NCBI RefSeq assembly: GCF_014897675.1
Contig: NZ_JABUXU010000004.1
Location: forward strand, 62,001-126,000
Direction: 5' to 3'
DNA: 64,000 nucleotides
Source: Advenella sp. FME57
Lineage (GTDB): Bacteria; Pseudomonadota; Gammaproteobacteria; Burkholderiales; Burkholderiaceae_B
This document shows, one piece after another, positions 44,629 to 64,000 of the stretch (the stretch's first letter is position 1; every line of letters begins with the position of its first letter). The translations under genes and the position numbers were made by a program. The notes beneath the pieces are model-generated. The model worked only from the letters and a program-made list of their open reading frames with translations, was not told the origin of the DNA and made no database searches.

Positions 44629-45018
44629 AAGAGACGACACCGGGCAGTTGATAGCGTACTTTAAATTGGTCTGTATACTTGGGCAGGATATGTTCGGCTC
44701 ACTGATCCAGAATCAGGAGGTTTGTCATCAGTGTATCCGCCTTGAGCCTGGTCCTGCTGCGCTTTGACGCATTTGTTCCTGACAATGTTGGATATGTAGT
44801 AAAGACCCTCAGGGCTGCAGGAAGGTTGCTTTGGATTTTACTAAAATATTTCAATTGAAATATTCTGGAAATGGTCGCACGGCTTGCCAGTCCTGTTCCC
44901 TGAACGAACGAATGAACAACGGGCTGCAATGATGAGTGAGGAAACCAACTGGCGGGCTGAGCGAAGTTCTAGTTGATTGAACGCCTGGCACCTGTTCCCA
45001 CGCGCTTGTCTATTGCGT
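44629..45018. other. Intergenic region upstream of the phospholipase D-like gene
   Basis: These 390 bases hold no gene I can support. They must contain the promoter for the minus-strand lipoprotein gene and the 3' end of the MFS gene. The clearest structure is the perfect palindrome at 44845-44864. Confidence 0.55.
44845..44864. promoter_or_regulatory. Perfect 20-bp palindrome, candidate operator
   Basis: AATATTTCAATTGAAATATT is its own reverse complement over all 20 bases. It stands about 215 bases upstream of the phospholipase D-like gene. The size and AT-rich arms look like a dimeric repressor site; no regulator is encoded next to it. Confidence 0.5.
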
Positions 45019-47558: not shown

Positions 47559-48082
47559 ATTCCGAAGACAATTGACATACTTTAGGCATTCATTGTACGT
47601 TTTCAAAAGAAAAAATGCGAAGGAAAACTGTTTATATTTAAAAGTCTTATATAAGACCTGATCCATAATGTCGTTTACACGCCATGAACGCGGCTGTCTG
47701 TAACCGGATCCGCCTGGTTCAGTAAATATGTCCAGTAATTACGCCCAACGAGTGCGCAAAATGAATATGCCCGATGAATGCGTTCAACGAATACACCACC
47801 ACGCAGGTTTGGTCCGCTGCGCCAGGGCGAGCCTGGATCCGCTTCATGCTCGATGCCAATATTTGCGCGCCCAGGACCATCAGGTGGTCTTAGGGCAACA
47901 AAGTGGCATGCGCTGCGACATCTATCAATGTCCGGGCAACGTCAATTCCGGTAGCGTTAACGATTTCTGCGATGGCATTCATAGTCTTTTATGGATAGTG
48001 TCGTGACATTGCCTTGTGCTGATGCTGTTCGTGTTGAGTCTATGGCATTGGCTTGCGGCGGTTTAGTGGCCAATCAAATTGA
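47559..48082. other. Intergenic region between AbrB-family gene and LysR gene
   Basis: A 524-base stretch. The part next to 47558 is AT-rich and carries the AbrB-operon promoter and the palindrome at 47644-47657. The part 47700-48082 is GC-richer. A minus-strand frame from about 47982 (MNAIAEIVNATGIDVARTLI) stops after about 30 codons and may be a remnant of an older gene, but I cannot name a family. Confidence 0.45.
47644..47657. promoter_or_regulatory. 14-bp palindrome upstream of the AbrB-MFS operon
   Basis: GTCTTATATAAGAC is a perfect palindrome 86 bases upstream of the AbrB-family ATG, inside an AT-rich stretch that should hold the promoter. A regulator of the GntR/TetR/LysR type could bind here; none is proven. 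Confidence 0.45.
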
Positions 48083-48988
48083 TCATTTGGGTGTGGGCGG
48101 GGACGCGCTCATGACTTGCTGGCCGGGTGCACACTTCATGATGAACTGGATAAGCTGGCGAACCGGTTCGGCCAGGCTTTGTTCCTGTCGATGAAGCAAT
48201 CCTGTCTCGCGATAGAAGGTATGGACGCCCAAATCAATGGCACGAACTTTGGCAGGCCAGCGCGTGAAAGCGGCGGTTTGCGGAAACAGGGCGACGCCTG
48301 CACCGTTTGCCACGAGCTTGACGATCGTTTCAAGTTCATCACATTCGCAGATTTCGTGCAGGCCAATATGCATTTGCCGCAGGAAACGATCAACCAGCCG
48401 TCCACCGAAGGAAGTACGATCGTAGCGGATAAATGGCTGCTCAGACAGCAATTGAGCCCAATCGCTACCGGCAGCATAAGAAGGAACAATAAGCCTGAAG
48501 GGTTCGCGTGCCAGTGTTTGCCACTGCAATTCGCTTTGCAGATGAAATGGCGGACGAATAATAGCCGCCATGTCTACGTCACCAGCATCGACCAGGTTCA
48601 CCATGTCCATGGATACGCCGGGAATGATGCGGGTATGGCAACCTGGACGGGTGCTGTGAAAGTTCGCCAGCGCATCGGGCAAGACAGTTCGTTGCAGCGT
48701 TGCGATGGCACCCACGTTGATATGCATGGCTTTGGCGTCAGCGACAGGCGTGGCACCCAGATTGCTGTATAGCTGGATCAATTCCTGCGCCTGCAAAAGC
48801 AACTGTTGCCCCTTTGCATTGATCCTTGCCGATCGCCCCTGCCGGTCAAACAGCGCAAATCCCAACTCAGCCTCCAGGCGCTGCATCTGGGCGCTGACGG
48901 CTGCCTGAGTAAGGCCTATTTTTTGCGCGGCGCTGGCAAACGTGCCCTCGCGGGACACCGCAATAAATGTTTTGAGTTCCCGGATCAT
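48083..48988 (-). CDS. LysR-family transcriptional regulator
   Basis: A 301-residue LTTR. The N-terminal winged helix-turn-helix is REGTFASAAQKIGLTQAAVS (residues ~13-32), followed by the linker helix and a periplasmic-binding-protein-like effector domain. The ATG at 48988 (MIRELKTF) is fixed by the family start; the longer frame upstream runs through the divergent promoter. It faces the VOC-protein gene and the AbrB-MFS operon lies beyond its 3' end, either of which could be a target. Confidence 0.9.
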   Translation of the reverse strand: MIRELKTFIAVSREGTFASAAQKIGLTQAAVSAQMQRLEAELGFALFDRQGRSARINAKGQQLLLQAQELIQLYSNLGATPVADAKAMHINVGAIATLQRTVLPDALANFHSTRPGCHTRIIPGVSMDMVNLVDAGDVDMAAIIRPPFHLQSELQWQTLAREPFRLIVPSYAAGSDWAQLLSEQPFIRYDRTSFGGRLVDRFLRQMHIGLHEICECDELETIVKLVANGAGVALFPQTAAFTRWPAKVRAIDLGVHTFYRETGLLHRQEQSLAEPVRQLIQFIMKCAPGQQVMSASPPTPK

Positions 48989-49009
48989 TGCATTCTCAAT
49001 GTATAAATA

Positions 49010-49032
49010 ATATTTGTGTATATTACAAATAT
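49010..49032. promoter_or_regulatory. LysR-type operator in the divergent promoter
   Basis: ATATTTGT and ACAAATAT are perfect 8-bp inverted arms around GTATATT. The site is 22 bases upstream of the LysR ATG, contains the T-N11-A pattern of LysR sites, and is centred in the promoter region shared with the VOC gene. Confidence 0.65.
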
Positions 49033-49188
49033 ATATTGATTTTATTTTTTTAACGTCGGGCCTACAATAAAAAATATCATTACCGTGCCGGACACGCTGG
49101 CACTTCCCCAAGGCAATGGCATTTGCAATAAGCGTTGTCAGTAGGGATTTTGCTAAACCCATACCACTTATACCAACCAGGAAAACCA

Positions 49189-49614
49189 ATGAGTCTGTCA
49201 CCTTTTCATCTAGCCATTCCCGTCTACGATCTGGCGGCTGCCCGCAATTTTTATGGCGAAGTGTTCGGCCTGGCCGAAGGACGTTCCAGCGAGCAATGGG
49301 TGGACTTTGATTTTTACGGACACCAACTGGTGATTCACGAACATCCGCAAACGGCGAGCCAGCAGCAGGCGCATACCAACGCCGTAGACGGCCATAACGT
49401 GCCTGTGCCGCACTTTGGCGTCGTGCTTGAGTGGAACCAGTGGGAAGCGCTATCGGAGCGCCTGAGAGCGCGCAATACCAAGTTTGTGATAGAACCGGGT
49501 ATTCGCTTCAAAGGTCAGGTTGGTGAACAGGCCACCATGTTTCTGTTTGACCCCTGTGGTAACGCACTGGAATTCAAGGCCTTCAGGGATATGAGCCAGT
49601 TGTTTGCCAAGTAA
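49189..49614 (+). CDS. VOC-superfamily (glyoxalase/dioxygenase-like) protein
   Basis: A 141-residue protein of the vicinal-oxygen-chelate fold. [21 protein letters not shown] is the usual opening with a metal-binding histidine; LVIHEH and the C-terminal [12 protein letters not shown] supply other candidate ligands (His/Glu). The substrate is unknown. Start ATG 49189 follows an AGGA site; an in-frame ATG at 49135 lies in the promoter. It is divergent from the LysR gene, which probably controls it. Confidence 0.85.
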
Positions 49615-49905
49615 AAAATTGAATCCCGGCGACGGGCCGGGACATGTCGGCGTGTAGGCTTGGCCTGTAGTATCAAAGCGCTTGAAGGGAAGGAAGGGGA
49701 CAGAGGCATTACGGGAAGGCGTCTTATGGGCGGCGTCGCCGCTGCAGCATTCGCAGCAATGACAAATGAGCCGTTGTAAATCCTGCTGTGCCGACCCTCT
49801 GGTACCGCAGAAAATCCATGCTGCAGTTATGTTGTAAACAACAGGTTTAAACAGCGCACGAGAGGCGCTGCAGCCTGCGACACGTTTCTGAACCGAATAC
49901 AGGCG

Positions 49906-49933
49906 AAAAAAATGCCCGCACAATGTGCGGGCA
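49906..49933 (-). terminator. Orphan rho-independent terminator
   Basis: On the minus strand TGCCCGCACA pairs with TGTGCGGGCA (perfect 10-bp complement around one base; in practice an 8-bp stem with a small loop) followed by 7 T residues (49912-49906). No protein gene on this strand ends here, so it may terminate a small RNA made between here and 50250. Confidence 0.65.
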
Positions 49934-50222
49934 AGTGGCTGAAATTTAATTCTATCACCATTTGCAAAAAAGTCCATGGTTTCATGTTTTAAATATATTT
50001 CTGAGCATGGCCGCGCATCGGGCGAGGCGCCGTGTCGTCCAGTGTGCTTGCCTCGCAGTGCCTGTCCTGTAGCGATTGCGTAGTTCACTGCGTTTGGATA
50101 TAACTCAAATGGGAACCGGGGCTGGACCTCCTGGGCACAAGTGGCTTGATTTGCGCAGCTTGCGGCGCTGCACGAGAGCCGCTACGGCCTTCAAGTTTGC
50201 GGATCAGTCCTGAAATAACCGA

Positions 50223-50228
50223 TATAAT
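50223..50228 (+). promoter_or_regulatory. -10 box of mnmE
   Basis: TATAAT, a perfect -10 hexamer, 26 bases before the mnmE ATG. The -35 region is poor at the standard 17-base distance; TTGCGG is 20 bases upstream. Confidence 0.5.
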
Positions 50229-50254
50229 AGGCTAACTTCACTGATGTTTCGCCT

Positions 50255-51661
50255 ATGTCCGCACCTGCCAACGATCCTATTGCAGCTATCGCAACCGCGC
50301 CGGGGCGCGGCGGTATAGGCGTCATCCGTATTTCGGGACCCGATCTAACCGGTCTGATCTCACAGCTGTTTGGGCGGGAACTGGCGGCGCGCCATGCCTA
50401 TTTTCTGCCATTTTGCGACAGCAAGGGCGAGTCCATTGACGAAGGCATCGCCATCTACTTTCGCGCGCCGCATTCGTACACCGGCGAAGATGTGCTGGAA
50501 TTGCAGGGGCACGGCGGTCCGGCGGTATTGAAAAGAATACTCGATCGTTGTCTGCAGGTAGGCGTACCATTACGCATGCGGCACGCCGAGCCCGGTGAAT
50601 TTACTCAGCGCGCTTTTCTGAACAACCGGCTGGATCTGGCACAGGCCGAAGCCGTGGCCGATCTGATCGACGCTTCCTCAGAAGCAGCCGCGCGCAGCGC
50701 CATGGCCTCTTTAAGCGGTTCTTTTTCTGCACAAGTGAACAATCTGGCAGATCAAATTATTCATCTGCGCATGTTGGTAGAGGCCACGCTGGACTTTCCC
50801 GAAGAAGAAATCGAATTTCTGGAAAAATACCAGGCGCGCGAAACGCTGGGCGGGATTCTCGGCGACATGGCAGAACTGGTGCGTCAGGCGCGTCAGGGCT
50901 TGATTCTGCGCGAAGGCTTGCACGTTGTGCTGGCGGGCCAGCCCAATGTCGGTAAATCCAGTCTGCTTAATGCCCTGGCAGGTGACGATATTGCAATTGT
51001 CACTCCGATTGCCGGCACCACGCGCGATAAGGTCACGCAGCAGATCCACATTGAAGGCGTGCCCATTCATATCGTGGATACAGCAGGCCTGCGCGACACT
51101 GACGATACCGTGGAAAGTATTGGCATCGCGCGCAGCTGGGCGGAAATTGCCAAGGCAAATGTGATTATTCACTTGCAGGACGCGCGTACGCCAAACGACG
51201 AGCTGGATGTCGGTATTACACGTCGGCTGCCGCAACGCACGCCGGTACTGGAAGTATTCAATAAAATCGATCTGCTCGATGAGGCAGCCCTGAAGGCACT
51301 AATTGCGAGACCCCCGGCAAATGGCAATACAGCCAGTACACACGAGGTCTCGCGCATTCTGATCTCTGCGGTTCATGAAACCGGCCTGGATGTGCTGCGC
51401 AGCAAACTGCTGCAGATTGCGGGCTGGAACCCCGGCGCCGAATCACCCTGGCTGGCGCGCGAACGGCATCTGGAAGCATTGCAAAAAGCAGCGCAACATT
51501 TGCTTAATGCCAAGGAACACGCTGCGCAAAATGATCGCGTGCTGGACCTTTTTGCCGAAGAATTGCGGCTTGCACACGAGTCGCTGTGGAGTATTACCGG
51601 CCAGTTTTCCAGCGATGATTTGCTGGGCGAGATATTTTCGAATTTTTGTATTGGGAAGTGA
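50255..51661 (+). CDS. mnmE: tRNA modification GTPase MnmE (TrmE)
   Basis: A 468-residue protein: N-terminal formyl-folate-binding domain ([20 protein letters not shown]), helical domain, inserted G domain (P-loop [28 protein letters not shown]) and the invariant C-terminal CIGK motif. It forms the cmnm5U enzyme with MnmG. The usual upstream neighbours yidC, rnpA and rpmH are absent. Its last 18 bases (51644-51661, TTTTGTATTGGGAAGTGA) are very similar to the attachment site used by SGI1-type elements, and a defence island follows directly. Confidence 0.96.
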
Positions 51662-51858
51662 GGCGACACTTATGAGAAAAACCATTGAGTGGTATGAGCC
51701 CGTCCTAGCGTAGGATGCTCTTCTCTTTTTGGGAGAGGGCCGTTGTTCCTTGAGTACCATCCTCTTGTTTTTTTCCTTGGCGGCAGGCAATTGTGATCGT
51801 CGATGATTATCAGACACTGATATAATTGTAAGTTAACGTATCATTGGATTTCCCGATT

Positions 51859-52176
51859 ATGAAGCGCTGCATTGTTGGTATCCGACAGCCAGAGGGCTCG
51901 CCGGGGCAGGCAAGCGAAACCCCCAGTATTTGGTTTCCTTCATTGGCATCACTGGCAGCGGTGTTGTCGGATGATAATCGCCGCCTGCTGCGCCTAATTC
52001 ATGACAAGCAACCCAAATCTCTGACAGAGCTGGCTGAACTCAGCGGGCGCAAGGTGCCGAACTTATCGCGCCCCCTACGGATGATGGCGGATTACGGATT
52101 GGTTTCACTACATCGCAATGTCCGGGATGTTCAGCCGACCGCGCTGGCGACCGAATTTCTGGTCGTGCTGGATTGA
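51859..52176 (+). CDS. Winged-helix DNA-binding protein (HVO_A0114-like), first gene of the defence island
   Basis: A 105-residue protein with a clear winged helix in the second half (LTELAELSGRKVPNLSRPLR, recognition helix VPNLSRPLRMM, wing YGLVSLHRNVRDVQPTAL). It resembles short regulators annotated as HVO_A0114-type DNA-binding proteins, some of which act as antitoxins (TumA type). No toxin gene is adjacent, so a role as a controller of the restriction operon is my favoured inference. A TATAAT box is at 51821-51826. Start ATG 51859; an in-frame TTG at 51844 is possible. Confidence 0.65.
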   Translation: MKRCIVGIRQPEGSPGQASETPSIWFPSLASLAAVLSDDNRRLLRLIHDKQPKSLTELAELSGRKVPNLSRPLRMMADYGLVSLHRNVRDVQPTALATEFLVVLD

Positions 52177-52266
52177 GTGTCATGGATGCAGAGAATAACA
52201 TCGCTGCGAGGGCAACACGGTCAAGCGTTGAACGACAGCAGGCTAGCATGGAAGGAATTAGATCCT

Positions 52267-54657
52267 ATGGATAAGCTGACATTCAGCGAACGTGATATTT
52301 GCACCAAGTTCATCACGCCCGCTCTGGAAAAGGCCGGATGGGACGTTTTGACTCAAGTACGCGAAGAGTTTCTGCTGACCAAGGGGCGTATCATCGTGCG
52401 CGGCAAACTGCATACGCGTGGCCAGCACAAGCGCGCCGACTATGTGCTATTTTACAAACCCAATCTGCCCATCGCCGTCATCGAGGCCAAAGACAACAAG
52501 CATACTATCGGCTCGGGCATGCAACAGGCCCTGGGTTATGCCGAAATGCTGCAGGTGCCTTTCGTGTTCAGCAGTAATGGCGATGGCTTCCTGTTCCACA
52601 ACAAGATCGCCAAGGACGGTGTCATCGAGCGCGAATTGAGCCTGGATGAGTTCCCTTGCGTTGATACGCTATGGCAATGGTGGGCAGAGCATCAGGGGCT
52701 GAGTACGCAGCAACAGGCCTTGGTTGCGCAGGACTACTATAGCGACGGCAGCAATAAGACGCCTCGCTATTACCAGTTGCTCGCCATCAACAACACCATC
52801 GAGGCGATTGCCAAGGAGCAGAAACGAATCCTGCTGGTAATGGCCACAGGCACGGGCAAAACCTATACCGCCTTCCAGATTATCTGGCGTTTGTGGAAGT
52901 CGCGTGCCAAGAAACGCATTCTGTTCCTGGCTGACCGCAACATCTTGGTCGATCAAACCATGACCAACGACTTCAAGCCGTTCGGCGCGGCGATGACCAA
53001 GATCCAGAAGCGGCAGGCCAATAAGTCGTATGAGATTTACTTGTCGCTCTATCAAGCTGTCACCGGTTCAGAAGAAGAACGGAACATATACAAACAGTTC
53101 AGCCCTGAATTCTTCGACCTGATCGTTATTGACGAATGTCATCGCGGCAGCGCCGCAGCGGACTCTGCCTGGCGCGAGATTTTGGATTATTTCCATTCCG
53201 CCACGCAAATCGGCCTAACCGCGACACCCAAGGAAACGAAGGAGGTTTCCAATATCGACTATTTTGGCGAACCCATTTACACATATTCGCTACGCCAGGG
53301 CATCGATGATGGCTTTCTCGCGCCCTACAAGGTGGTGCGCATTGATCTTGACAAGGATCTGACCGGTTGGCGTCCGGACAAGGGCATGCTAGACAAGAAT
53401 GGCAGCGAGATCGAAGATCGAATCTACAATCAACGTGATTTCGACCGCACCATGGTGCTGGAACAACGTACGCAACTAGTCGCGCGCAAGATCAGCGAAT
53501 ACTTGAAAGCCAGCAACCGCTTCGACAAGACCATCGTATTCTGCGACAACATTGACCATGCCGAACGCATGCGCCAGGCCTTGGTCAATGAAAATGCTGA
53601 CCTGGTGGTGCAGAACCACCGCTATGTCGTACGTATTACCGGAGACAATGAAGAAGGCAAGATGGAGCTGGATAACTTCATCTTCCCGGAAAGCAAGTAT
53701 CCTGTCATCGCGACTACCTCCAAGTTGATGACTACAGGCATCGATGCCCAGACCTGCAAACTCATCGTGTTGGACCAGCGTATTCAATCCATGACTGAGT
53801 TCAAGCAGATCATCGGACGGGGGACACGTATCAATGAGGATTTCAACAAGTATTGGTTCACTATCCTTGATTTCAAGAAAGCGACCGAGCTGTTTGCCGA
53901 CCCGGCTTTTGATGGGGATCCCGTGCAGATTTATGAGCCTGGTCCCGATGAGCCACCGCTTCCACCAGAAGAAGAGGGCGGGGAAGGGGCACTTGACGAT
54001 GACGGCACCTACTCAACGCCGGATGACGGTTCCAGGCCTCCAGGAGGCGTAGCCGAGCCGTTGCCGGGTGAGGAAGGCAGTAGCGTACGTCGTTACGTTG
54101 TCGCCAATGTCGAGGTCAAGGTGGTGGCCGAACGGGTGCAGTACTTCGATGTCAATGGCAAGCTGATAACCGAGTCCCTGAAGGACTACACCCGCAACAC
54201 AGTGGCCAAGGAGTTCGCGTCGCTCGACGATTTCCTGCGCCATTGGAGCAAGGCCGAGAAGAAGCAGGCCATCATCGACGAACTAGCCCATCAAGGGATC
54301 TTTTTCGAGGCATTAGCTGACGAGGTGGACAAGGAGTCCGGCAAGGATTTCGATCCCTTCGATTTACTATGTCATGTGGCCTGGGATCAACCCCCGCTCA
54401 CGCGCAAGGAGCGGGCCGAACAGGTTAAGAAACGGCACTATTTTGCCAAGTACGGAGAGCAAGCGCAGAAGGTGCTTGAAGCCCTGCTCGACAAGTATGC
54501 CGACGAAGGTGTGGCCGCCATCGAGGAAACGCAAATCCTCGCTATTGCTCCCTTCAGCCGCCTGGGCACTCCGATCGAACTGGTCCGTGCCTTTGGTGGC
54601 AAGACTCAATATCAACAGGCCGTCAGCGAGCTCGAACAAGAGCTCTATCGCGCTTGA
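52267..54657 (+). CDS. hsdR: Type I restriction endonuclease subunit R (HsdR, EcoEI-like)
   Basis: A 796-residue motor/nuclease subunit. The PD-(D/E)xK nuclease motif is D58...E73-A-K75; the helicase motor follows with Walker A ATGTGKT at 193-199, DECH at 289-292 and TATPKE (motif III). The C-terminal part corresponds to the EcoEI-type R_C domain and includes an acidic proline-rich linker (EPLPPEEE, near 595). With HsdM and HsdS it translocates and cuts unmodified DNA. I chose the ATG at 52267, preceded by AAGGA; the open frame continues upstream to 52177. A 25-base gap leads to hsdM. Confidence 0.92.
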
Positions 54658-54682
54658 CAAAAATTAAACCCAGGAAGTATCC

Positions 54683-56161
54683 ATGTCACTAACAACTCTT
54701 ATCAAGTCCATCCAGGACATCATGCGCAAGGATGTCGGCGTCGACGGCGATGCACAGCGTATCAGCCAGATTTGCTGGCTGCTGTTCTTGAAAATCTTCG
54801 ACGACAAGGAACAGGAATGGGAACTGACCCAGTCCAGCTACCGCTCGCCGCTGCAAAGCCGCTTTCGCTGGAGCAACTGGGCCAAAAATCCTGAAGGCAC
54901 GACAGGCGACGAGCTGATCGACTTCGTCAACAACGATCTCTTTCCTTCTTTGAAGCAACTTGCCACAAAGGCGGGCGTATCTGAGCAAGCCCGAGTGATC
55001 GGCTCGGTGTTCGAGGATGCCTACAACTACATGAAGTCCGGCACGCTGCTGCGCCAGGTGATCAACACTATTGAAGAGAACGTGGATTTCAACTCGTCCA
55101 GTGATCGTCACCTGTTCAATGATATCTACGAAAAAATCCTTGCCGATCTGCAATCGGCGGGCAACGCTGGTGAGTACTACACTCCACGCGCAGTCACGAA
55201 ATTTATGGTCGATATTCTCGACCCAAAACTCGGTGAGAGCATCCTTGATCCAGCCTGCGGCACGGGCGGCTTCCTGACTTGCGCCATTGAGCAGCTTAAG
55301 AAGCAGGTCAAGACGCCGGAAGACAACCGGCTGCTGCAGGAGAATATCTATGGAGTAGAAAAGAAACCTCTGCCGCACATGCTTGCCTTGACCAACATGA
55401 TGCTGCATGGCATCGACGTGCCCAGCCGTATCCGCCACGACAACACGCTGGCTCGCCCCTTCAAGGACTACGGCCCGCGCGACAGGGTGGATATCATCAT
55501 CACCAACCCGCCGTTTGGCGGAATGGAAGAGGATGGCATCGAGAAGAATTTTCTCGCCAGGCACCAGACCCGCGAAACCGCCGACCTGTTCATGGCGTTG
55601 ATTATGCACCTGCTCAAGCATGACACGGGCCGTGCCGCTGTTGTGCTGCCAGACGGCTTCCTGTTTGGCGAGGGTGTGAAGACCACACTCAAGCGCGAAC
55701 TGCTGGAAGAGTTCAACCTGCATACCATCTTGCGTCTGCCTAAAGGCGTGTTCGCTCCTTACACCAGCATCGCCACTAATATTTTGTTCTTTGAGAAGGG
55801 TGGTCCCACAAAGGATGTATGGTTCTTCGAGCATCCCTACCCGGAAGGCTACAAGAGCTATTCCCGCTCCAAGCCATTGACCGTTGGGGAATTCGACCGC
55901 GAGAAAGCCTGGTGGGGCGGTCCGCAACGCAAGGGACGCAAGACTACTGAGCATGCATGGAAAATTTCGGCCAAGGATCTTGCCGCTCGTAACTACAACC
56001 TGGACAGCAAGAACCCGCACGAGGTGACTATCGAACTGGGTGATCCGGACGAACTGATGGCCGAATATCAGGACATCACCCGCCAGTTGCACGCTGCCCA
56101 GCAGGCGCTGAAAACCGAACTGCTGGCCGCGCTCAAGGCCACCAGTGGGAGGGCAGTGTGA
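54683..56161 (+). CDS. hsdM: Type I restriction-modification methyltransferase subunit M
   Basis: A 492-residue N6-adenine methyltransferase. The N-terminal helical domain (HsdM_N, residues ~1-140) begins SLTTLIKSIQDIMRKD; SAM-binding motif I is DPACGTGGF at 189-197 and catalytic motif IV NPPF at 275-278. It modifies the host copy of the recognition site together with HsdS. A CAGGAAG site precedes the ATG. The stop overlaps the GTG start of the YhcG-like gene (GTGA, 56158-56161). Confidence 0.95.
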   Translation: MSLTTLIKSIQDIMRKDVGVDGDAQRISQICWLLFLKIFDDKEQEWELTQSSYRSPLQSRFRWSNWAKNPEGTTGDELIDFVNNDLFPSLKQLATKAGVSEQARVIGSVFEDAYNYMKSGTLLRQVINTIEENVDFNSSSDRHLFNDIYEKILADLQSAGNAGEYYTPRAVTKFMVDILDPKLGESILDPACGTGGFLTCAIEQLKKQVKTPEDNRLLQENIYGVEKKPLPHMLALTNMMLHGIDVPSRIRHDNTLARPFKDYGPRDRVDIIITNPPFGGMEEDGIEKNFLARHQTRETADLFMALIMHLLKHDTGRAAVVLPDGFLFGEGVKTTLKRELLEEFNLHTILRLPKGVFAPYTSIATNILFFEKGGPTKDVWFFEHPYPEGYKSYSRSKPLTVGEFDREKAWWGGPQRKGRKTTEHAWKISAKDLAARNYNLDSKNPHEVTIELGDPDELMAEYQDITRQLHAAQQALKTELLAALKATSGRAV

Positions 56162-57198
56162 CCGACAAGCCCATATCCCTCGTTCCTGCCCCGGAAGGCT
56201 ATGCCAACTGGCTGGGCGAGCTGAAGAACCGCATTCATAGTGCTCAACAACGGGCTGCATTGGCTGTCAATCGAGAACTGGTACTGCTCTACTGGCAGAT
56301 TGGTCGTGACATCCTGCAACGGCAGGCTGAACAAGGCTGGGGGGCCAAGGTCATTGAGCGGTTGGCCCATGACCTCAGAACGGCCTTTCCCGAAATGAAG
56401 GGTTTTTCCCGCGCGAACCTGATGTATATGCGTGCGTTCGCCGACGCCTGGCCGGATGCGGCAATTGTCCAACAGGTTGTTGGACAATTGCCCTGGGGTC
56501 ACAACTTGGTGTTGCTGGCCAGACTGAAGCAGCCAGAACAACGCCTGGCTTACGCCCAGCGCGCCGTGGAACAGGGCTGGTCACGCGCCACGCTGGAAAT
56601 CCATATCGAATCCCGCCTGCTGGAACGAGAAGGCCAGGCGATCACCAACTTCGCCGACCGTCTCCCCGCGCCGGGGACCGATCTGGCCCGGCAATCCCTC
56701 AAGGATCCCTACTTGTTCGACTTCCTGGATGTCGGGCAGGAAGCCAACGAGCGGGAAATCGAAGCGGCGCTGGTCAAACACATTACCCAGTTCCTCTTGG
56801 AATTGGGCGCGGGCTTTGCCTTCGTTGGTCGCCAAGTTCATTTGGAGGTTGGCGGTGAAGATTTTTTTATCGATCTGTTGTTCTACCACCTGAAGCTGCG
56901 TTGCTACGTAGTGATCGAGTTGAAAGCTGAGAAGTTCAAACCGGAGCATCTCGGCCAATTGAGTTTCTACCTCACCGCTGTGGACATGCAGGTCAAAGCA
57001 CAGCAGGACAACCCCACCATCGGCCTGTTGCTGTGCAAGAGCAAAAACACTGTGGTGGCTGAATACGCATTGCGTGACAAGACTCAACCCATCGGCGTGG
57101 CGGAATACCAATTGATCGAATCCCTGCCTGAAGAACTGCAAACCAGCCTGCCCAGCATCGAACAGATCGAGCGCGAACTGGGGGGCGAGCATGAATAA
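56158..57198 (+). CDS. YhcG/DUF1016 family PD-(D/E)xK nuclease inside the hsd operon
   Basis: A 346-residue protein with an N-terminal DUF1016 domain (YWQIGRDILQRQAEQGWGAK... and FSRANLMYMRAFADAWP) and a C-terminal nuclease domain: D239 in IDLLFYH and E254-x-K256 in VVIELKAEKF, followed by GQLSFYLTAVD. Family members are frequent between hsdM and hsdS and are predicted nucleases, but their contribution to restriction is not settled. The GTG start is coupled to hsdM; its end overlaps hsdS by 8 bases. Confidence 0.88.
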   Translation: MTDKPISLVPAPEGYANWLGELKNRIHSAQQRAALAVNRELVLLYWQIGRDILQRQAEQGWGAKVIERLAHDLRTAFPEMKGFSRANLMYMRAFADAWPDAAIVQQVVGQLPWGHNLVLLARLKQPEQRLAYAQRAVEQGWSRATLEIHIESRLLEREGQAITNFADRLPAPGTDLARQSLKDPYLFDFLDVGQEANEREIEAALVKHITQFLLELGAGFAFVGRQVHLEVGGEDFFIDLLFYHLKLRCYVVIELKAEKFKPEHLGQLSFYLTAVDMQVKAQQDNPTIGLLLCKSKNTVVAEYALRDKTQPIGVAEYQLIESLPEELQTSLPSIEQIERELGGEHE

Positions 57199-59578
57199 GC
57201 ACACCGCCGAACTGCTGGAAAAGCATTTCGACACCGCCTTCGCCGCGCCCGATGGTATCAAGAAACTTCGCGAACTGATCCTGACACTGGCCATGCAGGG
57301 CAAGCTGGTGCAGCAAGATCCGAACGATACGCCTGCGAGCGAACTGCTGAAAGAAATCGCGGTAGAGAAGCTGCGGCTGGTGCAGGAAGGCAAGATCAGG
57401 AAGCTTAATTCCTTGCCGCCAGTAACGGAAGAGGAAAAGCTTTATGCATTGCCGCAGGGGTGGGAATGGGTAAGGCTAGGTACTCTGGCAAGCTATAAAT
57501 ATGGGAAAACCCCTCCATCAAAGAATCCAATGTATTGGATGAGTAACGGTGGTTTTCCTTGGATTTCGATTTCAGACCTACCTATTCGTGGTTATCTTAC
57601 CAAAACAGCTAAAACCGTATCACCTGAAGCTGTTTCCAATGTTTTTAAACATACGCCTACACCCGCGGGCTCACTGTTGATGAGCTTCAAACTTTCTATC
57701 GGAAAGACAGCGATTACAGAGATTGATGCATATCACAATGAAGCAATTATTTCTTTTGTTGGCTTGGAGCAGAGGCTCAAATTATGGCTTTTTTGGGTGT
57801 TATACCCAGTGTCGAATTCTGGAAAATCAAAAAAGGCAATTAAGGGGAAAACTTTAAATTCAGAATCTATTGGTGATCTTTTAATCCCCCTCCCTCCTTC
57901 TTCAGAGCAACAACGCATTGTCGCCAAAATCGACGAATTGATGGCGCGTTGTGATGCACTGGAAGAACTTCGAACTACCCATCAGCGCGCGCGCTTGACT
58001 GTCCATAGAACCGTGATCAAGCAATTGCTGAATATAGCCGAACCTGAGCAGCAGCAGCGCGCCCAGGCCTTCCTCGCTGAAAACTTCGGGGAGCTCTACA
58101 CCGTCAAGGAAAACGTCGCCGAACTGCGCAAAGCTATCCTGCAACTGGCCGTCATGGGCAAGCTTGTTTCACAAAACCCGGATGATCAGCCAGCCAGCGA
58201 ACTGCTCATGGAGATCGAGGCCGAGAAACAGCGGTTGGTGAAGGAAGGCAAGATCAAGACGCCTAAGCCATTGCCGCCGGTAACGGAAGAAGAAAAGCCT
58301 TATCCTTTGCCGAAGGGCTGGATATGGGTAAGGTTTGATGCAATTGTGAACATTGGTAGCGGCGTAACAAAAGGTAGAAACTTGGTTGGCCGAGAAATCG
58401 TCAACATTCCTTATCTGCGGGTTGCTAACGTGCAACGCAGCTACCTCGACTTGTCTGTCATCAAAGACATAGTCATTCCGAGGAGCGAATTGGAAAAGTA
58501 TTCTCTGGTCACGGATGATTTGCTGATTACTGAGGGTGGTGATTGGGACAAGGTGGGACGTACTTGTATCTGGCGAGGCGAGATTTCTGTTTGTGTGCAT
58601 CAGAACCATGTTTTCCGAGCAAGGCGTTATATCACATCTCAATCTGAGGTTTGGCTTGAGAAATATTTGAACTCTGGGCCTGCTCGTGCATATTTCGCCG
58701 CTGCATCGAAGCAGACGACAAATCTTGCATCCATTAACAAGACTCAACTTCAAAAACTCCCGGTTCCTTTGCCGCCAGTTTCTGAGCAAAGCCGAATCGT
58801 TGCAAAAATTAAAGAACTAATGGTCTTATGCGAATCACTGGATCAGCAGATCGATGCTGCAACCAGCAAGCAGGCCGAATTATTGAATGTTCTGATTCAT
58901 GAACAATCAAAAGGCCTCGTAAAGGAAAAACACCGGCAAGAATCGCTTTCGCCTGCCCAAGTCATTGATCTAGCTACTTACCGTGCCAGTATCGGCTGCT
59001 ATGCGTTAACCAAACTAGCTAACGCTCGATACTTCGGTCGAACTGCTGCCGCCAAGGTGATGTACCTAGCGCAAGCGCACATTGGGTTGGAGTTGGATCT
59101 GAAACCTGAGCGTGAAGCTGCCGGACCACTGGATACCTGGATTTATGATTTCGAGAGGTACGGTCGGGGCAAACGCTGGTTCGAGGTCAATGAAAAGACC
59201 TTGGCCAATGGCAAGAAAAAGACAGAGTATCGTTGCTTGTCAGCGTTGTCGGAGCCTGCGGCGCAAGCTGAAGCTCTGATGTCGCCTAGTCAGAAGTCTG
59301 AATTTGACCGTTTGATCTATGCCCTGGCAGACAAAACGACTGAGGAAGTCGAGATCATTGCCACGCTGTTCGCAGTCTGGAACGATTTTCTGATTGATGG
59401 CGCTCAACCGACGGATGAGCAGATCATCTTCGATGTTCGCGAAAACTGGCATGAGCGGAAAGCACGCTTCACCCCAACCGAGCTTAGCCAGTGGCTGGCT
59501 TGGTTACGCAGAGAAAACATCGTTCCTCAAGGATTGCCGCCGAGAACAGTACAGCAATCAAGATTAGGCTTCGATTAA
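57191..59578 (+). CDS. hsdS: Type I restriction specificity subunit S with a long C-terminal extension
   Basis: A 795-residue HsdS. Two target-recognition domains are visible, ~90-240 (starting PQGWEWVRLGTLASYKYGK) and ~375-530 (PKGWIWVRFDAIVNIGSG), each ending in the conserved helix pair with LPPxSEQxRIVAKIxELM. Each half is preceded by a repeated segment (PASELLKEIAVEKLRLVQEGK and PASELLMEIEAEKQRLVKEGK). Classical HsdS proteins have about 400-600 residues; here ~200 extra residues (590-795) form a separate C-terminal region of unknown function. The first recognition domain is AT-rich against its surroundings, typical of exchanged specificity modules. Confidence 0.9.
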   Translation: MNKHTAELLEKHFDTAFAAPDGIKKLRELILTLAMQGKLVQQDPNDTPASELLKEIAVEKLRLVQEGKIRKLNSLPPVTEEEKLYALPQGWEWVRLGTLASYKYGKTPPSKNPMYWMSNGGFPWISISDLPIRGYLTKTAKTVSPEAVSNVFKHTPTPAGSLLMSFKLSIGKTAITEIDAYHNEAIISFVGLEQRLKLWLFWVLYPVSNSGKSKKAIKGKTLNSESIGDLLIPLPPSSEQQRIVAKIDELMARCDALEELRTTHQRARLTVHRTVIKQLLNIAEPEQQQRAQAFLAENFGELYTVKENVAELRKAILQLAVMGKLVSQNPDDQPASELLMEIEAEKQRLVKEGKIKTPKPLPPVTEEEKPYPLPKGWIWVRFDAIVNIGSGVTKGRNLVGREIVNIPYLRVANVQRSYLDLSVIKDIVIPRSELEKYSLVTDDLLITEGGDWDKVGRTCIWRGEISVCVHQNHVFRARRYITSQSEVWLEKYLNSGPARAYFAAASKQTTNLASINKTQLQKLPVPLPPVSEQSRIVAKIKELMVLCESLDQQIDAATSKQAELLNVLIHEQSKGLVKEKHRQESLSPAQVIDLATYRASIGCYALTKLANARYFGRTAAAKVMYLAQAHIGLELDLKPEREAAGPLDTWIYDFERYGRGKRWFEVNEKTLANGKKKTEYRCLSALSEPAAQAEALMSPSQKSEFDRLIYALADKTTEEVEIIATLFAVWNDFLIDGAQPTDEQIIFDVRENWHERKARFTPTELSQWLAWLRRENIVPQGLPPRTVQQSRLGFD

Positions 59579-59656
59579 CGATGGTTTTGAATGGAATCGG
59601 GAGTAGGGTAAAAATCGATGTCATGCATGTCAATTTGAGTCTTCACAAATGACATC

Positions 59657-60631
59657 ATGACAGGAAATAATTGGAGAAATAACGTGGCGCTCAATCTCTC
59701 AAAAGCGGTACTAGACTATTTGCGGGCGCGGCCTGAGGAAAAATTTACTGCGAGGCAGATCGCCGAGTGGGTGTTCGCCACCTTCCCCGTGGAATGTCAG
59801 GAAAAACGCGCTAATAGCCGAGGCAACTACATCAAGTCGGATGCGGATCTGGTGCAGCAGCTTGTTGCGGAAATCAGTTCGCACCGGCCCGGCATGCAAA
59901 CGAAGAATCCAGCGTTGAAAACCACCGAAGGGCGGCCGCGTAAGTATTACTACTCGGAGAAATCAGACAGTGCCGAGGTGGACGCGGCAGAGCACAAGGG
60001 GGCAGCAGCAGATGTCAGCACCTCAGTGCTCAATGAACATGGGTTGTACCCGTTACTCTCACAGTACCTATGGGAAGAGTTCGACGTCTTTTCCAAACGC
60101 ATCGACGAGAAGCGATCATCGAACAAGCGCGGACCGAATGGAAATCGATGGCTGTACCCCGACATGGTCGGCATGGACGATCTGGGCGCGGACTGGCACC
60201 GCGAGGTGCGAGACTGCGTCAAGCAGTATTCCGATAAACGTACCAAACTCTGGTCGTTCGAGGTCAAGCTGTTGATCAACCGCTCGAACGTCCGCGAGTG
60301 TTTCTTTCAGGCTGTATCGAATTCGTCGTGGAGTAACTTTGGCTATTTGGTCGCAGCGGAAATCAGTGGGCAAGAGACACTGAAAGAATTGCGAATGCTA
60401 TTCGCGGCCCATGGCATTGGTTTCATCAAGCTGGATGTAGATAATCCCGCTGACAGCCAAGTGCTGATTCCAGCGCGTGAACGCGACGAAATCGATTGGG
60501 ACATGGCCAACCGGTTGGCCACGGAAAATCGCGATTTCCTGGAGTACATCAAGTTGGTCAAACAGTTCTACCAGACGGGTGAGGCACGTCTGAGGGATTG
60601 GGATGTGCCCACAGAAGATTCAACCCAGTAA
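59657..60631 (+). CDS. HTH plus PD-(D/E)xK-like protein (COG2958/HrgA-like) in the defence island
   Basis: A 324-residue protein not characterised to my knowledge. Residues ~8-100 look like a winged-helix domain (FTARQIAEWVFATFP), close to the COG2958/HrgA group often found next to restriction systems. Residues ~130-290 show a nuclease-like pattern: D169 in WLYPDMVGMD, E202-x-K204 in WSFEVKLLINRSNV, then QAVSNSSWSNFGYLVA, which suggests a restriction-endonuclease-fold domain. It follows hsdS by 78 bases and precedes the RT-nitrilase gene by 12 bases, so it probably shares a transcript with it. Confidence 0.7.
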   Translation: MTGNNWRNNVALNLSKAVLDYLRARPEEKFTARQIAEWVFATFPVECQEKRANSRGNYIKSDADLVQQLVAEISSHRPGMQTKNPALKTTEGRPRKYYYSEKSDSAEVDAAEHKGAAADVSTSVLNEHGLYPLLSQYLWEEFDVFSKRIDEKRSSNKRGPNGNRWLYPDMVGMDDLGADWHREVRDCVKQYSDKRTKLWSFEVKLLINRSNVRECFFQAVSNSSWSNFGYLVAAEISGQETLKELRMLFAAHGIGFIKLDVDNPADSQVLIPARERDEIDWDMANRLATENRDFLEYIKLVKQFYQTGEARLRDWDVPTEDSTQ

Positions 60632-60643
60632 TGAGATGACTAC

Positions 60644-63600
60644 ATGACCAACCTACAATATCTGGGCCTTGCCTATCGCAAAGCGAAAGTTGATCTTTAC
60701 TACTCGTCCCATGCCTCTTTGGATGCAATTGCGAGTTATGAAGAAAATTTGTATTCCAACCTTTCATTGTTGCAGGAAAAAATCAATGGCGAGGATGAAG
60801 TTTGGGTGACGTCACCTGAATTCATCGGCACTTGGATGCTGGTGACAAAGTCCGTCGAGATGGGCTGCTGGGCGAAGCACAAAAAAGACAATGGCAGTAG
60901 CCTTATTTTTTCATCACCCATCGACGCATGGGACCACACACTAAAAGCCTTGAGCGACAACGGGCTGTCAGAAAAGCCAAAGGCCGAATTCCGGGTCATG
61001 GCCCGATGCAGTCTGGACTTTCATGTGCTGTCCACCTTGTGGATGCTGGAAGTTGGGCAGTTGTTCGATGACAAGTTAAGTGAGTGCGCCTACGGCAATC
61101 GCTTGCGCCGCACGCAAAATGGAAAAGGCATCAACAAGCTATCGCTCGGATCATTCAAGTCTTATCTGAAACCATTTCGCGACTGGCGTGACAAAGGCAT
61201 TACTGCCATGCAGACCGCGCTCGATGCAGAAAAAAAGATTGTCGCGTTGACTGCCGATGTCAGTTCGTTCTATCACGAACTGAATCCGGGTTTCATGCTG
61301 AACCCGGCCTTTGTTAACGGTCTGCTGAAACTGGAGCTGACGGCATTCCAGACCAAACTCCATCGTTTGTTCATTCGCGCCTTGCAGGCATGGGCAGCGG
61401 CAACACCGCTGAAGAAAGGTTTACCCGTCGGGCTGCCAGCATCGGCCATTGTGGCCAACATAGCGCTGATCGAACTGGATCGTTGTATCGAGCAACAGGT
61501 AGCACCCATTTATTACGGGCGCTACGTTGATGACATTCTGCTGGTCATGGAGAACGGCGCAGATTTTAGGTCGACGGTCGTGCTGTGGGAATGGCTGTTT
61601 GACCGGTCGAATGGGACGCTGGGCTGGGTGGATCAAGGCCAGAAGCTAGTTGGCTTCAAGCCGGCTTACCTCAGCGAAGGTGAGGGCAAAAGCCAGGTGC
61701 ATTTCGCCAATGGCAAAAACAAGGTGTTCATTTTGGCGGGGGAACCGGGCAAGACCTTGGTGGATGCAATTGCACACCAAATTCACGAACGTGCCAGCGA
61801 ATGGCGTGCCATGCCAAGGCTGCCTCGGTCAGCCTCACATGTTGGGACCGACCTGTTGGCCGCAACGCAAAGCGACGGCGAAGCCGCCGACAACCTGCGC
61901 AAAGCCGATGCGCTGACCATGCGTCGTGCTAGTTTCGCGATCAAATTGCGTGACTTCGAAGCCTATGAACGCGATCTGTTGCCAGAAGCCTGGACCGCGC
62001 ATCGTCGTGCTTTCTTCCGTGCCTTCATCCAACATGTACTAGTGTTACCGCAGTTTTTCGACCTGGCTGTTTATTTGCCCCGTGTCATCCGTTTGGCTAC
62101 GGCCTGTGAAGACTTTGCTGATCTGCGCCGGATCGTCGAAGCGATGCAAAGACTTTGCCAGCAGGTGCAGGCGCAATGTGATATCCAGATTAAAGCGTGG
62201 CCAGAAAGGGAGGATAAGCCGAATGCCACGGAGATGCTGGGTCGCTGGAAAACACAGCTCTTTACCAGCATCCGGGAAAGCATCACCGCCGCTTTCCCTC
62301 CCAACTTGTCCAAAACAGGCAAGCAAGCATGGCAAACCTATATGGCTGACTGTCATCTGGACTTCGACTCTGATGTCCTCTTGTTTGGGCCGCTATACGC
62401 CAAAAGCTTTCAAAAACAGCAGGCCCGCCTATTCTCGTTTGACCTTGCCCATATGCCGTTCCGCTTCATCGGCCTACCAAAGGAAATGGTGGCGCAGCGC
62501 GGTATTTCAGCCAAAAAAACCGTTGTAGGTTTCGACAATGCTGCAGAGTTGTTGCCGGACTCCGTACTCGTGGGCGCGCAGACACTCGCCCAATGGATTG
62601 GCTTTGAATATTTGCCGCAAGGACTGCCGTTCGCTACTCGGCCTTTCAACCTACCCGAGCTGTTCATCCTGAATCGTCATGCATATTCAGAAGCGGTACA
62701 GGGCAGCATGCAGGCTGTAGTCTTGTCTGTGAGAGGCTTTGAACTGGGTGAGAAAGCACCTCACTTCGATAAAAACAACGTATTGCAAATACCAGACGGT
62801 GCCGGTCCCCGCAAATACGGCATTGCTGTGTCCAGTTGGCAAACAAACCTGGAAAGCTGGACGGCCAGTGTGATGCGCATGCCTGATCCCGATGTCGAAC
62901 GTTATGTTCGCCTGTGCCGTTTACTGGATGGCGTAATCGCCCAGCCCAGGGATAGCCGTTACCTGATCTTGCCGGAGCTGGCTCTGCCCGCGCACTGGTT
63001 CATCCGTATCGCTCGCAAGCTGCAAGGTCGAGGCATTTCGCTGATTACCGGCATTGAATATTTGCACGCCAGCAAGTCGAGGGTCCGCAATCAGGTCTGG
63101 GCGGCGTTATCTCACGATGGTCTGGGTTTTCCATCGCGAATGATCTATCGTCAGGACAAACAGCGGCCCGCGCTGCATGAAGAGCAGGAATTGCAGCGTT
63201 TGGCCCGGTTGGAAGTCAAGCCGGACAAGGTATGGAAAACACCGCCTATCATTCAGCACGGTGACTTTCGGTTTGCCATGTTGATCTGCAGCGAATTGAC
63301 TAACATCCGCTATCGCGCTGATCTGCGGGGTAAGGTGGATGCGTTGTTTGTGCTGGAATGGAACCCAGATACTGAAACCTTCAATGCACTGCTTGTGTCC
63401 GCCGCTTTGGATATCCATGCTTACATTATTCAATGCAATGACAGACAGTACGGAGACAGTCGCATTCGCGCACCCTACAAGGATAGTTGGAAACGTGATG
63501 TACTACGGGTCAAAGGAGGTGTTACTGACTACTGTGTGATTGGTGATATTGACGTGCGAGCCTTGCGTCAATTCCAAAGTAGCCATCGTTCACCTGGGAA

Positions 63601-63685
63601 AATCTTCAAGCCCGTGCCGGATGGATTTAACGACGTGATGGACCACCAGCGCAAATTATTGCCGACCGGCGGCGATGGCGTGTGA
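60644..63685 (+). CDS. Reverse transcriptase-nitrilase fusion, defence-associated RT type 1 (DRT1/UG1)
   Basis: A 1013-residue protein. The reverse transcriptase part shows motif A with D205 (TADVSSFYH), a GLPVGLPASAIVANI region and the catalytic YVDD at 294-297 (YGRYVDDILLV). Residues ~650-1010 form a C-N hydrolase (nitrilase) domain with a complete candidate triad: E778 (LILPELALP), K839 (YRQDKQRP) and C882 (MLICSELT). This architecture is that of the UG1/DRT type 1 antiphage proteins, for which both activities were reported to be needed. It is the last gene of the island, 12 bases after the HTH-nuclease gene, with type I RM genes upstream. No separate template RNA gene is visible. Confidence 0.9.
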   Translation: MTNLQYLGLAYRKAKVDLYYSSHASLDAIASYEENLYSNLSLLQEKINGEDEVWVTSPEFIGTWMLVTKSVEMGCWAKHKKDNGSSLIFSSPIDAWDHTLKALSDNGLSEKPKAEFRVMARCSLDFHVLSTLWMLEVGQLFDDKLSECAYGNRLRRTQNGKGINKLSLGSFKSYLKPFRDWRDKGITAMQTALDAEKKIVALTADVSSFYHELNPGFMLNPAFVNGLLKLELTAFQTKLHRLFIRALQAWAAATPLKKGLPVGLPASAIVANIALIELDRCIEQQVAPIYYGRYVDDILLVMENGADFRSTVVLWEWLFDRSNGTLGWVDQGQKLVGFKPAYLSEGEGKSQVHFANGKNKVFILAGEPGKTLVDAIAHQIHERASEWRAMPRLPRSASHVGTDLLAATQSDGEAADNLRKADALTMRRASFAIKLRDFEAYERDLLPEAWTAHRRAFFRAFIQHVLVLPQFFDLAVYLPRVIRLATACEDFADLRRIVEAMQRLCQQVQAQCDIQIKAWPEREDKPNATEMLGRWKTQLFTSIRESITAAFPPNLSKTGKQAWQTYMADCHLDFDSDVLLFGPLYAKSFQKQQARLFSFDLAHMPFRFIGLPKEMVAQRGISAKKTVVGFDNAAELLPDSVLVGAQTLAQWIGFEYLPQGLPFATRPFNLPELFILNRHAYSEAVQGSMQAVVLSVRGFELGEKAPHFDKNNVLQIPDGAGPRKYGIAVSSWQTNLESWTASVMRMPDPDVERYVRLCRLLDGVIAQPRDSRYLILPELALPAHWFIRIARKLQGRGISLITGIEYLHASKSRVRNQVWAALSHDGLGFPSRMIYRQDKQRPALHEEQELQRLARLEVKPDKVWKTPPIIQHGDFRFAMLICSELTNIRYRADLRGKVDALFVLEWNPDTETFNALLVSAALDIHAYIIQCNDRQYGDSRIRAPYKDSWKRDVLRVKGGVTDYCVIGDIDVRALRQFQSSHRSPGKIFKPVPDGFNDVMDHQRKLLPTGGDGV
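63576..63589 (+). repeat. 14-bp direct repeat, copy 1 (inside the RT-nitrilase gene)
   Basis: AAAGTAGCCATCGT occurs here near the 3' end of the coding region and again at 63746-63759, 170 bases downstream. Confidence 0.6.
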
Positions 63686-64000
63686 TCGTGAACACTGGTT
63701 TAGATACGCAGCGCTGGTATGGCTAAGCGCGCGTTTGAGCAATGGAAAGTAGCCATCGTCTTCCAAGCTGGCCTCGACTACTACCGGGGGTTGATTCCGT
63801 AAGGTATACCAGCTGATCACAGAGAGTCCCGCCACGGGATTACGGTGGTACTTGACCGCGGTTATCTATGTGGACAGCCGCAGATACAACACGGCCCTAG
63901 GCACAGTTTAAAGGAAAGCACGCTTGCTGCTCGGTGTGCTGGGCAAAGACCCTCGCAGCTCGTGGTAGCTAACAACCACATTGCCGTCGCTGGTGGACGG
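63686..64000. other. Stretch downstream of the RT-nitrilase gene to the window end
   Basis: I see no supported gene in these 315 bases. A 27-codon frame at 63719-63802 has no family resemblance. It holds the second copy of a 14-bp direct repeat. The right border of the island is not visible. Confidence 0.5.
63746..63759 (+). repeat. 14-bp direct repeat, copy 2 (after the RT-nitrilase gene)
   Basis: Exact copy of AAAGTAGCCATCGT, 61 bases beyond the RT-nitrilase stop. Chance recurrence over so short a distance is unlikely, but the function is unknown. Confidence 0.6.

Follow-up and report, generated by a model that had tools for sequence, protein, structure and literature searches.

A UG5-nitrilase reverse transcriptase in an EcoAI-type restriction operon of Advenella, and the recurrence of its family in methylation-based restriction operons

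A 64,000-nucleotide stretch of the Advenella sp. FME57 genome (contig NZ_JABUXU010000004.1, positions 62,001 to 126,000; hereafter the window), part of a 280-kb contig in a 4.7-Mb genome, carries a run of genes that holds a type I restriction-modification (RM) system and finishes with a reverse transcriptase (RT) joined to a nitrilase domain. The original prediction, made from the sequence alone, read this run as a composite defence island ending in a DRT1 RT, and offered two views of it: the RT and the 324-residue gene before it form a two-gene unit, or RM and RT defence are expressed together as a layered system. The locus raises the question of why an RT-nitrilase should be carried in a restriction operon, and whether it belongs with its immediate neighbour or with the restriction system as a whole. 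The genes of the operon, with the basis of each assignment, are:

51859-52176, + strand: small winged helix-turn-helix (HTH) DNA-binding protein, HVO_A0114 / HTH_20 (Pfam search)
52177-54657, + strand: hsdR, type I restriction subunit of the EcoAI/FtnUII family, with a GTG start (Pfam, PADLOC, NCBIfam)
54683-56161, + strand: hsdM, type I N6-adenine methyltransferase (PF02384/PF12161, PADLOC)
56158-57198, + strand: yhcG / DUF1016 PD-(D/E)xK nuclease, between hsdM and hsdS (PF06250 and PF17761; PADLOC PDC-S02)
57191-59578, + strand: hsdS, type I specificity subunit (PF01420, PADLOC)
59657-60631, + strand: 324-residue gene of the HrgA family (homologues, structural model)
60644-63685, + strand: UG5-nitrilase RT of 1013 residues (PADLOC profile, conservation, structural model)

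The open reading frame (ORF) list and the profile matches confirm a composite defence operon of seven ORFs running in one direction. The HTH gene has an ATG at 51859, upstream of which the ORF list begins it at a TTG (51844). Neighbouring genes overlap by 4 bases (yhcG with hsdM) and 8 bases (hsdS with yhcG), or are separated by 78 bases (hsdS to the 324-residue gene) and 12 bases (the 324-residue gene to the RT). Full-length HsdR, HsdM and HsdS are present within the one operon, and Pfam, PADLOC and NCBIfam agree that the EcoAI-type type I RM system is complete and accompanied by YhcG; the EcoAI-type HsdR profile scored 1,223 bits against a cut-off of 550 (NCBIfam). Three accessory genes are embedded in this EcoAI-type operon: YhcG between hsdM and hsdS, and HrgA and the UG5-nitrilase RT after hsdS. 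Its restriction and modification activities are predicted ones, and the small HTH protein is possibly the regulator of the operon.

The RT itself is not the one first named. DRT1 is the RT family UG1. PADLOC profile PDLC03780 (RT_UG5-nitrilase), which spans the whole protein, matched residues 2-1009 with 1,032 bits, whereas the Drt1a profile scored 91 bits, matching best over the nitrilase end, and on these scores the DRT1/UG1 label was discarded in favour of UG5-nitrilase. The RT domain was also recognised by the Pfam RVT_1 profile (36.3 bits against a cut-off of 29.6). A search of a phage collection with the window's RT returned no match at an E-value of 1e-5.

Are restriction operons a habitual setting for this family? 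We compared 81 UG5 loci, namely the window and the best 80 of at least 452 confirmed relatives (at least 588 stretches) in a collection of 84,980 species. Context was called with hidden Markov models (HMMs) built from the neighbours of UG5 loci, together with PADLOC labels, on crude ORF calls in which some overlaps (131 bases in L058 and L060; L and G numbers are our handles for loci and sampled genomes) may be wrong starts. Six of the RTs are in pieces (L032, L055, L090, L094, L100 and L101). Among the 81, 16 had type I RM genes on the strand of the RT and 20 had genes of bacteriophage exclusion (BREX) systems, 19 by HMM and one (L056) by PADLOC. Usable flanks, defined as at least 3 kb upstream and at least 1 kb downstream, were available for 70 loci; the 11 outside this set are the window (for which the stretch used ends 315 bases beyond the RT), one BREX locus (L048) and nine without assigned context. 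The 70 divide into 15 type I RM loci, 19 BREX loci, one with an HsdR fragment that was counted as neither (L100), and 35 with neither. In one respect this share is a low estimate, since L049 and L075, in which genes for a helicase and a large methyltransferase share the strand of the RT, were counted as neither, and L053, where a PglX-like C-terminus precedes the RT at the start of a contig, was counted as having no context and lies outside the 70. By these profile-based calls, roughly one in two of the UG5 loci that had usable flanks is embedded in a methylation-based restriction operon, either type I RM or BREX, with genes mostly overlapping or nearly so, and one locus elsewhere sits in an operon of the defence island system associated with restriction-modification (DISARM). 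As UG5 RT-nitrilases recur in restriction operons, the layered system envisaged in the original prediction gains support.

The packing of the RT within these operons is tight. The first ORF of 100 residues or more after the RT belongs, in all 19 type-1 BREX loci, to the core BREX genes and has the strand of the RT (the C-terminal part of PglX in 14, PglZ in 3, BrxL in 2), and in 16 of the 19 the RT is followed by a gap of at most 2 nucleotides or by an overlap. Thirteen BREX loci (L027, L028, L030, L039, L041, L043, L047, L050, L051, L054, L057, L063 and L101) have the N-terminal part of PglX upstream and the C-terminal part downstream, so that the RT separates the methyltransferase half from the specificity half, in some of them with other cargo between the halves. 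The DISARM operon (L272, 1334-17756) reads DrmD, DrmMI-N, a 526-residue gene, DrmMI-C, UG5 RT and DrmA. At type I RM loci the gap before the RT is at most 31 nucleotides in 13 of 16, and the HMMs found no core hsd gene downstream of the RT on its strand in any of the 16; further downstream, L096 has a gene that clusters with the HsdR-like genes of L082 and L092. A split pglX was considered as a mark of RT-carrying loci and set aside: three BREX loci lacking the RT (L273-L275) have full-length pglX, and 13/19 against 0/3 (p = 0.055) are too few.

Three UG5 loci, in BREX or other settings, have a YhcG/DUF1016 gene directly upstream of the RT (L045, 3009-4115; L057, 2708-3835; L236, 11632-12744), and in L073 such a gene with an added SNase domain (8516-9832) lies 144 bases upstream of it. 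In L085 the RT stands between Tn7-like TnsB/TniQ genes and an Avs2-like gene.

The same association was seen in genomes drawn without regard to the RT. A strong UG5 match was present in 5 of 398 genomes (any match in 13) and in 4 of 369, the window's genome being among both. Seven other genomes were obtained in this way. The contig of G602 is too short; four of the remaining six RTs are in type I RM (G029 and G186, the loci L026 and L083), BREX (G304, locus L043) or DISARM (G634) operons, and the other two (G316 and G587) lie outside operons of these three kinds. In G316 the RT is interrupted by a stop and immediately preceded by YhcG.

As a control we took 11 loci of the related RT-nitrilase DRT1, comprising 6 of 7 strong genome matches (one contig was too short) and 5 of 7 plasmid records (leaving out one duplicate and one 7% fragment). 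None of the six genome loci and none of the five plasmid loci was in a type I RM or BREX operon, although 3 of the 11 are fragments. By Fisher's exact test, 34 of 70 UG5 loci against 0 of 11 gives p = 0.0014 and against the 0 of 8 non-fragments p = 0.0076, and the 4 of 6 from the RT-blind sample against 0 of 11 gives p = 0.006, all with independence overstated because the loci are related. PADLOC was added on the DRT1 neighbours because the HMMs came from UG5 neighbours; it found no type I RM, BREX or DISARM gene among 18 neighbouring ORFs at seven DRT1 loci, and reported AbiD (L230), Iet (L233), Drt1b (L258) and a type II methyltransferase-like gene (L232) nearby; L232 apart, it bore out the HMM-based control.

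The setting has also changed along the RT phylogeny. The tree of 80 RTs was made with FastTree, a fast method, and has long branches. The labels RM, BREX and neither require at least 18 changes with unassessed rows left out; RM-or-BREX against neither requires 15; with unassessed rows taken as 'not', well-supported branches force 9 changes for BREX and 9 for RM. Labels were nonetheless more clustered than in shuffles (10 changes against a mean of 16.5 for BREX; 10 against 13.1 for RM), which points to inheritance as well as change. RTs each 71-76% identical to that of the window occur with RM (L065), with BREX (L028, L030 and L051) and with neither (L029). It appears from these comparisons that the RT has repeatedly changed places, passing from one chemically distinct system to another or joining and leaving such systems. 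A modular backup effector would fit this pattern better than a guard closely matched to a single complex.

What such an effector might do is suggested by its resemblance to DRT1. Conservation was assessed in 80 UG5-nitrilase ORFs of at least 850 residues, taken from the database and viral-contig matches and the window. This set, which also underlies the tree, includes three ORFs cut at contig ends (L074, L097 and L099), two nearly identical plasmid copies (L006 and L007) and one labelled as without context that has almost no upstream sequence (L008). The viral contigs were the best 80 of 111 matches, the long ones being L103-L106, of which L103 and L104 were used in the tree. The elements of the protein discussed below are:

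61523-61534, + strand: RT catalytic motif YVDD, residues 294-297 (conservation)
61796-61798, + strand: S385, candidate DNA-priming residue (conservation; role proposed from DRT1 S402, PMC13275509)
62801-63637, + strand: nitrilase domain, residues 720-998, with E778, K839, E846 and C882 (conservation, fold comparison)
63608-63628, + strand: C-terminal motif K989-x-x-P992-x-G994-F995, matching the DRT1 lid K1219..F1225 (conservation, comparison)

The YVDD motif and the E778, K839 and C882 set are intact, as had been noted at the outset, and D296, D297, E778, K839 and C882 are each invariant in 80/80 ORFs, as is a further glutamate, E846. An AlphaFold model of the RT (45-sequence alignment) had a mean predicted local distance difference test score (pLDDT) of 88.6 and a predicted template modelling score of 0.90. 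Since its residues 721-997 match nitrilase-superfamily amidases (4kzf: Z 23.7, root-mean-square deviation (rmsd) 2.9, 241 residues aligned), the C-terminal domain is assigned a nitrilase fold. Longer Foldseek matches of the RT include AbiA, AbiK, DRT4/UG15 and DRT9; the DRT1 entry 9yfd was not among the fold matches listed, which is uninformative about the folds. In comparison with 9yfd, C882 aligns with C1116, and D296/D297 with D324/D325. The DRT1 tail, K1219-T-Q-P1222-A1223-G-F, corresponds to K989-P-V-P992-D-G994-F995 in the window, and among UG5 ORFs K989 and P992 are conserved in 80/80, G994 in 78/80, and F or Y at position 995 in 80/80; the position of A1223 is D in the window and variable in the family. 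Of the serines, threonines and tyrosines of the window's protein between residues 298 and 480, S385 is the sole invariant one (80/80; Y477 is kept in 78/80). It lies 88 residues past the active site, as compared with 77 for DRT1 S402, near a helix end in the model, and is by analogy a candidate for the priming residue of UG5.

According to the DRT1 study, that RT makes template-free DNA on its own S402 and forms dormant filaments in which the C-terminal tail closes the nitrilase pocket, and its defence is lost on mutation of the RT, the nitrilase, S402, K1219 or A1223 (PMC13275509). Extending this mechanism to UG5, and taking gene order into account, we think it reasonably probable that UG5-nitrilase RTs are DRT1-like, autoinhibited suicide effectors that serve methylation-based restriction systems as a modular backup. 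The RT would prime DNA synthesis on itself, with S385 as the candidate site, and the resulting DNA adducts would drive its assembly into a dormant oligomer, with the nitrilase pocket shut by the conserved C-terminal K-x-x-P-x-G-F lid. A phage cue would open the pocket and let the nitrilase act on a small molecule that is essential, killing the infected cell. Carriage in a restriction operon would make this a second line, firing when a phage survives or blocks restriction.

A more specific form of the proposal, which we advance as doubtful, is that UG5-nitrilase is a restriction-linked suicide switch common to type I RM, BREX and DISARM, kept dormant by its own DNA adducts and the lid. Its trigger would be the disabling or overloading of the methyltransferase-restriction machinery by anti-restriction proteins of phages, such as DNA mimics, and blocked restriction would then lead to cell death. 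The anti-restriction protein Ocr is described as acting on both type I RM and BREX and as binding the BREX methyltransferase BrxX (PMC7261183), which could make it a common trigger for both main carriers.

Several observations weigh against the proposed backup effector and its mechanism. In 35 of the 70 UG5 loci the HMMs found no type I RM or BREX gene, and some UG5 RTs lie beside rpoD, PEP carboxylase or methylmalonyl-CoA mutase genes, which indicates that the RT is able to stand by itself. The sample of 80 took the top-scoring of at least 452 relatives and leans to kin of the window, HMMs built from UG5 neighbours favour finding restriction genes there, and much other cargo is found in BREX and type I RM operons. 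The DRT1 control is small, and three of its loci have restriction-like genes: a type II methyltransferase-like gene adjoins DRT1 on the same strand in L232 (12006-13331; 94 bits), a 95-residue ORF directly upstream of DRT1 in L230 has a weak HsdR match (42 bits), and in L257 a gene fusing type I endonuclease and methyltransferase lies 6.8 kb from DRT1 on the opposite strand. S385 and DRT1 S402 are unaligned by profile comparison, which joins the nitrilase ends only. According to the DRT1 study, conservation of S402 does not extend to other class 3 RTs (PMC13275509). DRT1 needs no RM system for its defence.

Could the RT belong instead with the 324-residue gene directly before it? This protein had no match in Pfam, PADLOC, NCBIfam or the PDB sequences, and relatives were found in 28 plasmid records, several of them annotated HrgA, at about 34-45% identity to those. 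Across 13 homologues D169, E202, K204 and Q218 are invariant. The HrgA model (mean pLDDT 82.5) consists of a winged helix at about residues 8-103 and a PD-(D/E)xK-like domain at about residues 122-304; fold comparison gave moderate Z scores with PaqCI (9.6; rmsd 3.3, 131 aligned) and EndoMS (8.1; rmsd 2.7, 100 aligned) and about 7 with winged-helix chains, and Foldseek returned no match below an E-value of 0.001. The HTH/PD-(D/E)xK-like reading first given to this gene is thus upheld by the model and, at moderate Z, by fold comparison. HrgA matches occurred in 17 of 398 sampled genomes, the window's genome included, and we examined 18 HrgA loci (13 of the 16 other genome matches and 5 of the 28 plasmid records, several on short contigs). 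Type I RM genes were present in seven, clearly in L240, L253 and L254, by annotation in L252, with weak scores in L237 and L238, and on the other strand in L246; a Proteus locus has the gene order M-S-HrgA-R.

A dedicated HrgA-RT unit was suggested by the 12-base gap, and the same gene order recurs in L094. Against it, HrgA is present in 2 of 81 UG5 loci, the window and L094, and L094 keeps HrgA (89%) though its RT is broken. In L061, which among intact relatives is the nearest (88% for the RT over aligned columns and 97% for YhcG), HrgA is missing and the RT follows hsdS after 89 bases, and none of the 18 HrgA loci has a UG5 RT, as compared with the 7 that have type I RM genes. Tallying the 324-residue gene directly upstream of the RT, as the original prediction had proposed, therefore showed that the recurrent pair is not RT and HrgA but RT and restriction operon, and we regard a two-gene unit as highly improbable. 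In other RM loci the slot between hsdS and the RT holds PDC-S11 in L065 and something similar in L032, a KwaB-like gene in L088, an ATPase-like one that scored under the Pfam cut-offs in L083, and genes of no assigned family in L026 and L084. This variety, and the occurrence of HrgA in RM operons lacking the RT, indicate that HrgA is an interchangeable RM accessory; HrgA and YhcG are probably parallel accessory nucleases of the RM system rather than RT subunits.

Two further explanations concern the operon as a whole. The RT might be a passenger, an independent abortive-infection gene to which tolerant, often transferred RM, BREX and DISARM operons lend expression and mobility with no functional coupling. 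That unrelated cargo (SduA, an ATPase, PDC-S11, KwaB-like, YhcG and HrgA) uses the same slots, that close relatives of the window's RT are found with RM, BREX or neither, and that half of the 70 loci show neither would all be expected of a passenger. The absence of DRT1, likewise an abortive-infection RT-nitrilase, from such operons in all 11 control loci is not, nor is the packing of the RT against the following core gene in 16 of 19 BREX loci, and we consider this explanation possible but unlikely. Alternatively, the RT-nitrilase could physically guard the restriction system, binding the methyltransferase/specificity complex and being released when a phage restriction inhibitor binds that complex, like PrrC of EcoprrI, an anticodon nuclease that is a suicide effector encoded in a type I RM operon. 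The position of the RT gene between the methyltransferase and specificity halves of pglX in 13 loci, and after a split drmMI in one, would suit a guard, as would the action of Ocr on type I RM and BREX and its binding of BrxX (PMC7261183). Since related RTs occur with type I RM, with BREX or with neither, one conserved binding partner is argued against, and we judge a physical guard improbable.

The remaining features of the locus concern its borders and expression. mnmE (50255-51661) precedes the operon and was named from the sequence, with no profile match behind the name; mnmE 3' ends are a known island site. A 13-bp direct repeat, TTGGGAAGTGAGG, lies at its 3' end (51651-51663; strand not applicable), with a second copy starting at 64452, outside the window (L005 852). 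These repeats are possibly the ends of a 12.8-kb island enclosing the whole operon, which is suggestive only: 5 of 500 base shuffles likewise yielded a 13-base repeat of the mnmE end, and a conserved island site was set aside, as mnmE was absent from the flanks of the 88 UG5 loci searched. A promoter and terminator scan gave 7 and 15 sites against shuffle means of 8.5 and 14.5 and is uninformative; its best promoter-like site (59642-59671) is just 5' of the 324-residue gene, where separate transcription may start. A non-coding RNA partner of the RT was considered and rejected, as Rfam at gathering thresholds gave no match in window positions 44001-64000 and the 12-base gap directly upstream is too small. 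The same genome has two more RT genes, L001 (C59:179287-179844) and L002 (C19:106215-106823). The latter is overlapped by an upstream 311-residue ORF, and the two resemble a retron effector pair.

If UG5-nitrilase RTs are backup suicide effectors of restriction systems, as we propose, this would link methylation-based restriction (type I RM, BREX and DISARM) with DNA-synthesising suicide RTs, two fields that have been studied apart. It would give a purpose to a little-studied RT family and supply BREX and type I RM with a backup effector that is not a nuclease. Whether phages pay for disarming restriction by setting off abortive infection could then be put to a simple test. Precise predictions follow for mutants of S385 and the lid motif and for co-expression with split pglX. 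We found this known RT family in a recurrent setting that we did not find described: among titles and abstract openings no paper described a UG5-nitrilase RT in restriction operons, though the main UG/Abi RT classification may note the link, and the published UG5-nitrilase descriptions consulted, in the parts available, make no mention of a recurrent place in type I RM, BREX or DISARM operons. The main text of a 2026 BREX survey does not mention reverse transcriptase, nitrilase, UG5, RVT, DUF1016 or split (PMC12839542).

In comparison with known systems, the window's RT shares with known UG5-nitrilase RTs the family profile and the order of an RT and a C-terminal nitrilase, and the 324-residue gene is a plain member of the HrgA family whose place before the RT is found in only 2 of 81 UG5 loci. 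With DRT1/UG1 the RT has in common its domain order, its RT and nitrilase catalytic residues and the C-terminal K-x-x-P-x-G-F motif, but the two belong to different RT families and differ in length (1229 residues in DRT1, 1013 in the window). The priming serine is proven in DRT1 and a candidate in UG5, and the DRT1 control loci, unlike many UG5 loci, lie outside type I RM, BREX and DISARM operons. As in EcoprrI, the effector gene is placed within an RM operon; PrrC is a tRNA nuclease, whereas the effector here is an RT-nitrilase whose activation by anti-restriction is hypothetical. The BREX survey, in its accessible text, describes auxiliary effectors within BREX loci, proposed as backup, and in this the UG5 RT is alike; the effectors described there are nucleases, whereas the one described here is an RT-nitrilase (PMC12839542).

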